Source: Marinobacter sp. es.042 (GTDB lineage: Bacteria; Pseudomonadota; Gammaproteobacteria; Pseudomonadales; Oleiphilaceae). From it: a DNA stretch of 64,000 bases. The notes under the pieces are model-generated. The model made no database searches and was not told the DNA's origin. It saw only the letters and a list, made by a program, of their open reading frames with translations. Positions 9,933 to 32,124 of the stretch are shown one piece after another (positions within the stretch are counted from its first letter, which is position 1; each line of letters starts with the position of its first letter). The stretch lies in NCBI RefSeq assembly GCF_900188315.1, contig NZ_LT897781.1, forward strand, positions 1,860,001-1,924,000, given 5' to 3'. The position numbers and the translations under genes were made by a program.

Positions 9933-10772
9933 TCAGCCTTCCATGACCCGGAAGCGGACTTCATAACCGGTGAACTTCCGAATATTGATCACACCGGTAT
10001 CCAGAATAAGGTACTGCCCCTTGATGCCCTCAAGTACGCCCTCGACTTCCGGCGATTTGTCGAGGTTATGGGTTTTGATCTTGGCTGGCCAGACCTGGAC
10101 AGGATAGCTCAGGCCAAGCCCCTGCTCGTCAACTTCCCGAATGGAGTCCTGACCGTGGGCCTGCCTGAGCGACTCAAGGTCGTCGGATATCAGCCCAAGC
10201 ATCCGCTGCCGCTCATCCACCAGATCGAGTTCCGGGACATCGCCCTTGAGCATGGCCCGCCAGTTGGTCCGATCGGCGACGTGAGCCTTACAGGCAACTT
10301 CCACAAGGCCTGCGAGGTATCGCGTTGCAACTCGCACCATCGGGATAGCGTCAACAGCCCCCTGGTCAATCCACCGTGTTGGCACCTGGGAAGCCCGGGT
10401 AATACCAACCTTGAGACCCGACGAGTTCGCAAGGTACACCACATGCTCCACCATGCAATGGGTTTCACCCCACTCGGGCTCACGGCAGGTACCAAGATGA
10501 TAGTGGCACTTCTCCGGACTCATGATGCAGCTGTCACAAGCGGCAAGCTTGCGGAAACAGGGGTAACAAAAGCCCTGATTAAAGCTTTTGTTGGTTTTCC
10601 TGTCGCAATGGATACAGCGAATCACGCCATCAAAATCCAGGCGCAAAGGCCTGCCGATCAGATCATTCAGAGGGATACGGGTATCGCCAACGGCAATGGA
10701 ATAGGCCACCGGGTTTCCGGCCTCCGCCGGCATTTTCCGGAGCCGGCCGGTGACATCAATCAGTTCGCTCAA
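9933..10772 (-). CDS. DUF2797 domain protein
   Basis: The 279-residue protein has a DUF2797 layout. A Cys-rich block in the middle (IRCIHCDRKTNKSFNQGFC, then CYPCF, CDSC and CHYH) looks like two zinc knuckles. It is followed by HVVYLANSSGLKVGITR, a strand-helix stretch resembling the GIY-YIG fold. No enzymatic activity has been firmly assigned to the family, so I make no functional claim beyond a probable zinc-binding, possibly nucleic-acid-related protein. Its start overlaps the yeaC stop by 4 bases (ATGA), which indicates translational coupling, and pepN follows 82 bases after its stop. Confidence 0.85.
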   Translation of the reverse strand: MSELIDVTGRLRKMPAEAGNPVAYSIAVGDTRIPLNDLIGRPLRLDFDGVIRCIHCDRKTNKSFNQGFCYPCFRKLAACDSCIMSPEKCHYHLGTCREPEWGETHCMVEHVVYLANSSGLKVGITRASQVPTRWIDQGAVDAIPMVRVATRYLAGLVEVACKAHVADRTNWRAMLKGDVPELDLVDERQRMLGLISDDLESLRQAHGQDSIREVDEQGLGLSYPVQVWPAKIKTHNLDKSPEVEGVLEGIKGQYLILDTGVINIRKFTGYEVRFRVMEG

Positions 10773-11059
10773 GACTTGACCTCGACAAACTGGCTGGGGT
10801 CCATATCGTCTTTATCCTGCTTGCGCTGCACCGAAGGATCGCAGGCGGTACCGGCTTTGCTGCCCCGATCCAGGTAGCCAGTACGCTCTTCTTCAGGAAT
10901 GTTGTGAAGGTTCTCGTAGTAGATCACCGCTTCCAGGCTGATTTCACGCTGTTCGGGCGTCAGTTTTCGGCCATCAGGCCATTTGCCGAGTTCAATTGAC
11001 TGCCGGAGGCTCCGGTAGACATTGGGATCCAGTCGCTCGATCAGTTCTTCGTAAGTCAT
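10769..11059 (-). CDS. yeaC: YeaC family (DUF1315) small protein
   Basis: This 96-residue soluble protein matches the DUF1315/YeaC family: MTYEELIERLDPNVYRSL, then SIELGKWPDGRKLTPEQRE and the EEERTGY segment. The function of the family is unknown. It has a good ribosome-binding site (AGGAG about 8 bases before ATG) and heads the yeaC-DUF2797-pepN unit. A Fur box lies 61-79 bases upstream of its start codon. On the minus strand TTGATG (11117-11112) and CATATT (11094-11089) are 17 bases apart and form a possible, weak promoter for it. Confidence 0.9.
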   Translation of the reverse strand: MTYEELIERLDPNVYRSLRQSIELGKWPDGRKLTPEQREISLEAVIYYENLHNIPEEERTGYLDRGSKAGTACDPSVQRKQDKDDMDPSQFVEVKS

Positions 11060-11104: not shown

Positions 11105-11138
11105 TTGACAGCATCAAACGATAATGATTATCATTACT
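11105..11138 (+). promoter_or_regulatory. Sigma-70 promoter overlapped by a Fur box
   Basis: TTGACA (11105-11110, perfect -35) and TATCAT (11129-11134, 5 of 6 for -10) are separated by 18 bases. A 19-bp Fur site at 11120-11138 (GATAATGATTATCATTACT) matches the classical palindromic consensus at 16 of 19 positions and covers the -10 element. Iron-loaded Fur would therefore block RNA polymerase here, giving transcription only when iron is scarce. The expected start is close to 11141. Confidence 0.8.
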
Positions 11139-11140
11139 TC

Positions 11141-11226
11141 ACCAAATGACGACGGTCGTATCATTTGGTCTCTCTCATCAGGAGCTAAAAGCTCTTTTAA
11201 TGCCCCGCCTCTGGCGGGGCTTTTTT
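11141..11226 (+). ncRNA. Candidate Fur-repressed small RNA (RyhB/PrrF-like in design)
   Basis: From the predicted start (about 11141) to the end of the terminator is 86 nt with no credible ORF. The RNA folds into three parts. A 5' hairpin pairs ACCAAATG (11141-11148) with CATTTGGT (11162-11169), with an inner ACGA/TCGT pairing. A small hairpin pairs GAGCT (11182-11186) with AGCTC (11190-11194). The third part is the terminator. A CU-rich unpaired linker (11170-11181) lies between the first two, and a U-rich stretch (11195-11199) before the terminator suits Hfq binding. Promoter, Fur box, size and terminator match the plan of iron-stress sRNAs. The linker matches the fdxA leader antisense over 13 nt. 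I do not recognise the sequence as a known RNA family. Confidence 0.72.
11202..11226 (+). terminator. Rho-independent terminator of the candidate sRNA
   Basis: GCCCCGCC (11202-11209) pairs with GGCGGGGC (11213-11220) around TCT, followed by six T (11221-11226). On the minus strand the same stem lies immediately after the rhomboid stop codon, which is embedded in the A/T-run, so the hairpin is shared by the two convergent transcripts. Confidence 0.85.
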
Positions 11227-12088
11227 ATGCGCCCCTTCTGCCTCTTACGGGCAAAACCACCGCAAGGGCCAGGCCGGCAACAAACCCACCCAGGTGCGCC
11301 TCGTTGGCCATACGCCCGAGCCCGATCATTTCCGGCAGCGGGGTAAACCCGATGACCATCCACGCAACGGCAAAGGTTACCAACGCAGGTGGAAACTGAA
11401 ACCTCGGTGCCGATCGCTGGCTGAGCCAACAATAGCCCAGAATCCCATACACCACTCCCGATAGCCCACCGAACAGCGGGCCCGAGACAAAATACTGCAG
11501 GCCGTTGGAAATCAGGCTGGTGATCACAAACAGCGTGATTAGCCGGGCGCGACCATCAAACCACTCGATCTGGCTACCCAGAAACCAGAGCATGACCGAA
11601 TTGAAAATGATGTGGGTCCAGCTGAAGTGCAGAAAATCCGGCGTCAGCAGCCGCCAGACCTGGCCGCTTGCCAGCGTCGCTGTCAGCGCTTCAATGCGGC
11701 CGGCCATGGTGCTCCAGTCGAAATCCCGGGGGTCGATCACCATCAGGCTGGCCGCCAGCTCATTCTGCCCCATGGCCGTGAGCCAGACCATGGCTACGGC
11801 AAACACGATAATCCCAAGCACCAGCGGCGCATGACGCGGAGAAGGTTGCCAGCGGCCACCAACAAACACCGGCGAGCGGTTCTGACGATCCACCGCTTCC
11901 CTGATTTCCGGTTCCGCCATAAAACGGTCAAGGGCCGAGAGCACGGGTTCCGCATGGGCGGGATCTTCCAGCCAGAGCACCTGGAACCCGCCCTCTTCCG
12001 TGATGCGGTGGGTCACACCCTGGCCGTTCAGCCAACGGCTGAAGCCCGCCAGGTTTACCGTGGTATCCAATTGCTTGACTCGGTACAC
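11225..12088 (-). CDS. Rhomboid family intramembrane serine protease (GlpG-like)
   Basis: This 287-residue inner-membrane protein cleaves transmembrane substrates within the bilayer. It has an N-terminal cytoplasmic domain of about 85 residues as in GlpG, then six hydrophobic helices. The catalytic Ser is in GGLSGVVYG (Ser210), the catalytic His in NEAHLGGF (His265), and the oxyanion-side HxxxN motif is H159-IIF-N163. All key residues are present. Its stop codon sits in the A/T-run of the terminator that ends the opposing sRNA. Substrates are unknown. Confidence 0.92.
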   Translation of the reverse strand: MYRVKQLDTTVNLAGFSRWLNGQGVTHRITEEGGFQVLWLEDPAHAEPVLSALDRFMAEPEIREAVDRQNRSPVFVGGRWQPSPRHAPLVLGIIVFAVAMVWLTAMGQNELAASLMVIDPRDFDWSTMAGRIEALTATLASGQVWRLLTPDFLHFSWTHIIFNSVMLWFLGSQIEWFDGRARLITLFVITSLISNGLQYFVSGPLFGGLSGVVYGILGYCWLSQRSAPRFQFPPALVTFAVAWMVIGFTPLPEMIGLGRMANEAHLGGFVAGLALAVVLPVRGRRGA

Positions 12089-19024: not shown

Positions 19025-19101
19025 TGGCGGAGCGGACGGGACTCGAACCCGCGACCCCCGGCGTGACAGGCCGGTATTCTAACCAACTGAACTACCGCTC
19101 C
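19025..19101 (-). tRNA. tRNA-Asp (GTC)
   Basis: The minus strand folds as a 77-nt tRNA with CCA encoded. The acceptor stem GGAGCGG pairs with CCGCTCC, the D-arm contains AGTTCAGTTGGTT, the anticodon loop CTGTCAC carries GTC, and the T-arm contains GGTTCGAGTCC. All stems pair. Five T follow the CCA end, consistent with nearby termination. A strong promoter lies 75-102 bases upstream. Confidence 0.98.
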
Positions 19102-31757: not shown

Positions 31758-31770
31758 GCTCCTGATGAGA
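31758..31770 (+). promoter_or_regulatory. Predicted sRNA pairing site in the fdxA leader
   Basis: GCTCCTGATGAGA is the exact reverse complement of positions 11173-11185 of the candidate Fur-regulated sRNA, whose CU-rich linker provides 9 of the 13 bases. The site begins 43 bases before the fdxA ATG and abuts a small leader hairpin. Pairing could reduce translation or expose the mRNA to RNase E. The complementarity is seen; the regulation is inference. Confidence 0.5.
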
Positions 31771-31800: not shown

Positions 31801-32124
31801 ATGGCGTTTATCGTTACTGATAACTGCATCAAGTGTAAGTACACAGACTGCGTGGAAGTCTGTCCGGTAGACTGCTTCTACGAGGGACCGAACTTTCTGG
31901 TAATCGACCCGGACGAATGTATCGACTGCGCCCTGTGCGAGCCAGAGTGCCCGGCCGAAGCCATTTTCTCGGAAGACGAGCTACCTGCCGATCAGGTCCA
32001 GTTTGTGGAGCTGAATGCCGATCTGGCCGCCAAATGGCCGAACATCACCGAAAAGAAAGATCCGCTGCCAGACGCTGAAGAGTGGGATGGCAAGCCGAAC
32101 AAGCTTCAGTATCTGGAAAAGTAA
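31801..32124 (+). CDS. fdxA: 7Fe ferredoxin FdxA (Azotobacter FdI type)
   Basis: This 107-residue electron carrier holds one 3Fe-4S and one 4Fe-4S cluster. The cysteine pattern is complete: [17 protein letters not shown] for the first part and [12 protein letters not shown] for the second. The C-terminal extension ([20 protein letters not shown]) is the hallmark of the FdI/FdxA family. I take ATG 31801, because mature FdI begins with the same residues (Ala-Phe-x-Val-Thr-Asp-Asn). An in-frame ATG at 31765 would add 12 residues without similarity. AGGGA precedes the start at 7 bases. Being iron-rich, it is a plausible target of iron-sparing control. Confidence 0.96.

Follow-up and report, generated by a model that had tools for sequence, protein, structure and literature searches.

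Positions 11105–11226 (plus strand) of the window, the whole 64,000-nucleotide stretch of Marinobacter DNA analysed here, very probably encode a trans-acting, iron-sparing small RNA that is a divergent relative of the Pseudomonas PrrF RNAs, with the ferredoxin gene fdxA as its foremost predicted target. The host genome is a single contig of 3.94 Mb. The initial annotation had proposed that the locus is the iron-stress small RNA of this lineage. At the level of sequence, that proposal is supported by genus-wide conservation, by a conserved promoter and Fur box, by a structure kept through two-sided changes, by the strand of the terminator and by a conserved anti-seed before fdxA; these features, as far as sequence can test them and together with the kinship to PrrF that it establishes, agree with a Fur-repressed iron-sparing small RNA. 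The features of the locus are as follows.

11105–11110, plus strand: −35 hexamer TTGACA, perfect in 74 of 86 distinct homologous loci
11120–11138, no strand assigned: Fur palindrome over the −10, sequence GATAATGATTATCATTACT, kept in homologues
11129–11134, plus strand: −10 hexamer TATCAT, with an 18-nt spacer from the −35
11140–11226, plus strand: predicted small RNA of about 87 nt, the start (about 11140) being placed from the position of the −10
11141–11169, plus strand: hairpin 1, with 94.6% of outer-stem cells paired in 73 sequences and few double changes
11171–11181, plus strand: seed TCTCTCATCAG, single-stranded in the fold save for its last two bases
11180–11196, plus strand: hairpin 2, with five of six counted pairs changed on both sides
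11202–11226, plus strand: intrinsic terminator, a stem (11202–11220) followed by six T, with 97.8% of cells paired
10769–11059, minus strand: upstream neighbour, a YeaC-like protein (DUF1315; Pfam PF07023, 90.4 bits)
11225–12088, minus strand: downstream neighbour, a rhomboid protease-like protein (Pfam PF01694, 103.5 bits)

The promoter described in the initial annotation (TTGACA, an 18-base spacer and TATCAT) was recovered as the sole promoter-like site between 10900 and 11400 (11/12 matches; 0.2 such sites per shuffle). The Fur palindrome had been given as 16 of 19 bases, a count that is correct when the centre base is scored; with respect to GATAATGATNATCATTATC there are two mismatches, and no other site in the 64 kb has three or fewer (0 in 100 shuffles). 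The last hairpin, followed as claimed by six T, is a terminator. The number of terminator-like sites is unremarkable (0.8 expected in shuffles), so the weight of the terminator comes from its conservation. Within these 500 bp, the single promoter-like site and the single terminator-like site share the plus strand and the yeaC and rhomboid genes occupy the minus strand, an arrangement that fits a free-standing small RNA gene. The unit had also been called free of open reading frames. Taken literally this does not hold, since mechanical frames at 11124–11399 and 11146–11346 (plus strand) cross it. A coding gene in the interval is nevertheless ruled out, because both frames run through the terminator and the lengths of the indels among homologues are not divisible by three.

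The fold of the RNA at 11140–11226 has the three hairpins first read after the promoter, with an energy of −35.8 kcal/mol and a z-score of −5.7. Conservation of this structure was assessed on 73 of 81 extracted transcripts (seven near-duplicates and L082, which has a different scaffold, were omitted). Extraction required most of the seed, yet only one of 101 loci failed, and that one because of its terminator. Because RNAalifold on the alignment (A1) gave the terminator alone, the three hairpins were placed manually, following the fold of the window. In the 73 transcripts, 91.2% of cells are paired and 12 of 26 pairs have changes on both sides; the compensatory changes to be looked for in a Marinobacter alignment are thus present. 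Four of five measures were reached by none of 500 shuffles and the number of pair types by one, and slid structures, as a control, pair just 36–52% of cells. By element, covariation gives good support to the terminator (three of eight pairs, in up to 33 sequences) and to hairpin 2; it is thinner in hairpin 1 (three of nine pairs, with one sequence each), where rows L065–L067 are misaligned. The seed is invariant in the alignment, save for three rows that are two bases shorter at the 5′ end. A further alignment (A2), with one row (G153) on the wrong strand, is illustrative only.

With a 111-bp probe, homologues occur in 121 of 124 Marinobacter genomes at E ≤ 0.01 and in 120 at E below 1e-14; the match in G076 (E 0.007) is not counted as found, which leaves a strong total of 120/124. 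The seed UCUCUCAUCAG and the Fur box are kept across the homologues. In the 86 distinct loci, the box has 0–5 mismatches at 18 scored positions (at most four in 85), and 85 of 86 shuffled upstream stretches have at least six. The hairpins and the Fur box, on whose presence in relatives the initial annotation had staked its reading, are therefore kept. At all 100 loci compared (L002–L101, with some genomes represented twice), yeaC and the rhomboid gene share a strand and flank the seed; neither gene was found in the 2–3.4-kb stretches around 36 loci of other families. The four Marinobacter genomes without a strong homologue are G021, G067, G076 and G064. In G067 and G076, yeaC is at a contig edge, and G064 is 62% complete with no YeaC seen. 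In G021 (L178, about 905–972 on the minus strand; L495), the yeaC–rhomboid interval has a terminator and no promoter, Fur box or seed, owing to either a recent loss or a misassembly; the fdxA leader of G021 still has the 13-base anti-seed. Matches listed in a pattern scan of named records include chance ones, such as Paenibacillus.

The RNA had been described as unrecognisable as either RyhB or PrrF, with a search against both Rfam models as a check. At Rfam's own thresholds, the window contains nothing but a tRNA gene (19028–19101, minus strand). In a relaxed scan (23 matches at E ≤ 10), the RyhB model is absent and RyhB identity is ruled out, so that half of the statement stands. The other half stands at the cut-off and not beyond it. 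PrrF is the best model for the locus, with 37.8 bits vs. a gathering score of 90, and it aligns through the promoter, Fur box, core and terminator. Part of this score is promoter, since the transcript alone scores 26.0 bits, and PrrF then has no clear lead over other families, anti-hemB having the lower E-value. GcvB, anti-hemB and the other sub-threshold matches were taken as terminator-driven chance. Genome-wide at E ≤ 0.001, the PrrF model matches 52 of 163 genomes of the family and 0 of 14 control genomes, with no match in the genome of the window (G000); the matches confirmed as the same locus are those compared with the results of the reverse search below. In none of the 163 is the cut-off passed. 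Because the cut-off fails, the Marinobacter RNA is not a member of RF00444.

The RNA is probably PrrF-like all the same, a divergent relative by descent, on the strength of reverse model searches and of bridging forms. The reverse model (R2) was built from the transcript without the promoter and run on 293 genomes of the order, with rough E-values. Within the family it matches 143 of 163 genomes at E ≤ 0.1, chance matches included, and misses G155. The matches read in the order comprise 17 loci and 20 stretches, which include a minority of those above E ~1e-3. Five of the 17 loci are scored by Rfam as PrrF at 152–162 bits, all in family f20, presumably Pseudomonas. Could a Fur-regulated small RNA of independent origin have come to resemble PrrF in seed and plan only? 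We consider this unlikely. The scaffold does differ, and the weak transcript-only score and the missed cut-off would be expected of such convergence. In addition, the PrrF core is present in eight of the 13 loci read outside the family at E < 1e-3 and absent in five, which are chance matches, so that shared terminators inflate the scores. Yet the two best R2 matches outside the family are PrrF loci, and families f38, f34 and f37 carry PrrF-like RNAs below the cut-off, as does f36 with a weaker box. Forms with intermediate cores bridge the two types not only in these four families but also within the window's own family, in genera g2 and g13, where the PrrF-like RNA is beside yeaC (L510, L513, L514, L518, L521).

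The number of copies varies. PrrF-like RNA genes occur in tandem at L159 (G411, f38), with five copies at 1041, 1343, 1620, 1897 and 2174, at L160 (G262, f37) with three, and at L161 (G199, f38) and L077 (G120, a Marinobacter) with two each. By sequence, each tandem copy has a Fur-like box and a terminator of its own. In family f16 (L172, L174, L177), TCTCTCATCATCGCT is directly before the terminator and no Fur-like box was found at these three loci, which possibly encode another small RNA.

For a divergent PrrF relative, the window itself contains the best predicted target.

31801–32124, plus strand: gene of the ferredoxin FdxA, best predicted target (NCBIfam NF045490 FdxA, 178.8 bits, cut-off 135)
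31758–31770, plus strand: anti-seed GCTCCTGATGAGA in the fdxA leader, 13 bp, perfect complement of 11173–11185

The gene is about 20 kb from the RNA locus, and the anti-seed covers positions −43 to −31 relative to its start codon. Seed-region duplexes were scored against 766 gene starts (the window and 40 stretches of 20 kb), with gene starts taken from a simple script and energies that ignore accessibility. On this scale fdxA ranks first at −34.8 kcal/mol, compared with a mean of −13.6 (sd 3.5) and with −27.1 for the runner-up. Among the 766 sampled leaders, GATGAGA occurs in three and CTGATGAGA in one. As main targets, sodB and sdhC are unsupported by their average ranks (351 and 390 of 766), and iron genes apart from fdxA show no clear excess in the top 40. 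A search of the own genome with the pattern CCTGATGAGAGA gave no clear target in the best 11 loci of the matches listed. In many sodB (L179–L208) and sdhC (L209–L238) leaders, a GAGAGA tract recurs shortly before the start codon; it could pair with UCUCUC, with average scores.

The full 13-base anti-seed is present in 12 of 30 loci of the genus. The genera with this type of RNA, counted as those where R2 scores best (g1, g5, g8, g11 and g15), are represented by 49 genomes, and 46 of these have the shorter GATGAGA some 32–37 bases before fdxA (30/30, 12/14 and 4/5 in three sets). It is missing in G074 and G141 of the second set and in G071 of the third, although the RNA is present. In the 28 other genomes (14 of other genera of the family, 14 from outside), GATGAGA before fdxA was never found; G259, one of those from outside, has GATGAG. 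This confinement to genera with the same RNA form speaks against an iron-sparing RNA for which fdxA is no real target and GATGAGA belongs to another control of fdxA, as does the match in the window, with 13 perfect bases and a GACC block at 6 sd from the sample mean. The persistence of GATGAGA in G021 despite the apparent deletion of the RNA locus would suit such a separate control, which we regard as improbable. When the RNA of each genome was paired with its own fdxA leader, no more than 10 out of 200 shuffled leaders equalled the real one in 14 genomes out of 21; in the remaining seven the counts are 11 (G392), 14 (G365), 25 (G263), 35 (G197), 88 (G262), 140 (G125) and 180 (G141). In the fdxA leaders of f38 (L357, L361, L366), TGATTAG by the ribosome site complements the other half of the PrrF core; the version of this element in L357 is TGATTAGCTT. 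In P. fluorescens Pf-5, FdxA protein falls in iron-deprived media (log2 −1.97 and −2.21) without a significant change of transcript, the pattern that post-transcriptional control would give; in that paper, the passages on Pf-5 FdxA make no link to PrrF (PMC3377617).

It is very improbable that the Fur box instead controls the divergent yeaC, whose start is 61 bases away, and that the remainder is a mere spacer with no trans-acting RNA. The box does lie upstream of yeaC at every locus checked, but there is no minus-strand promoter-like site, the plus-strand −35, seed and terminator are conserved together with the structure, and none of 36 loci checked in other families has its PrrF-like RNA beside yeaC.

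For the iron-sparing RNA, expression, control by Fur, a role of Hfq and the direction of regulation are inferred by analogy with PrrF and RyhB. With iron present, Fur–Fe(II) on the palindrome over the −10 would, judging from the site, block transcription. With iron short, the RNA of about 87 nt would be made, ending at the intrinsic terminator, with Hfq probably on its U-rich 3′ end. The exposed seed could then pair with the leaders of iron-protein mRNAs, above all fdxA. Pairing should lower the translation or stability of the fdxA mRNA, so that scarce iron would not be spent on an iron-sulphur ferredoxin.

RNAs of this kind are known; what seems to be new, within the open papers searched, is the lineage and the target, and we found no description there of a Marinobacter iron-sparing RNA. 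The locus provides a candidate for such an RNA, suggests that Rfam's cut-off for PrrF conceals a wider family, and offers in fdxA one sharply testable target. More tentatively, and with rather less than even confidence, one may view PrrF as one branch of a wider group of iron-sparing RNAs that spans five or more families of the order and owes its definition to the seed UCUC(C/U)CUCAUCA and not to the scaffold. FdxA would be a core target retained across this span, even though the region of the RNA that pairs, and the part of the leader with which it pairs, vary; copy number, with as many as five genes in tandem, would determine the dose.

RyhB of enterics and Vibrio has the same plan and is likewise Fur-repressed and iron-sparing, whereas the Marinobacter RNA gives no match to its model at E ≤ 10. 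NrrF of Neisseria and ArrF of Azotobacter are termed iron-repressed PrrF homologs in a passage of PMC2851614. PrrF1 and PrrF2 of Pseudomonas (RF00444) share with the Marinobacter locus a Fur box over a promoter, apparently of sigma-70 type in Marinobacter also, an intergenic position, and the order hairpin 1, seed CUCAUCAG and U-rich terminator; R2 and the PrrF model reciprocally recover each other's loci. In contrast, the Marinobacter RNA is shorter (about 87 nt vs. 116 and 114 nt for PrrF1 and PrrF2, as given in PMC2851614), it has other neighbour genes, and it is without the GCUAAUCACGG half of the core. The first half of the PrrF core UCUCCUCAUCAGGCUAAUCACGG is present as UCUCUCAUCAGG, and the second half is replaced by hairpin 2. 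The genome of the window has one copy, whereas Pseudomonas usually has two, with sibling prrF copies described for nearly all Pseudomonas in a passage of PMC4211561. Finally, the best predicted target in Marinobacter is fdxA and not the sodB/sdh/acn set of PrrF.
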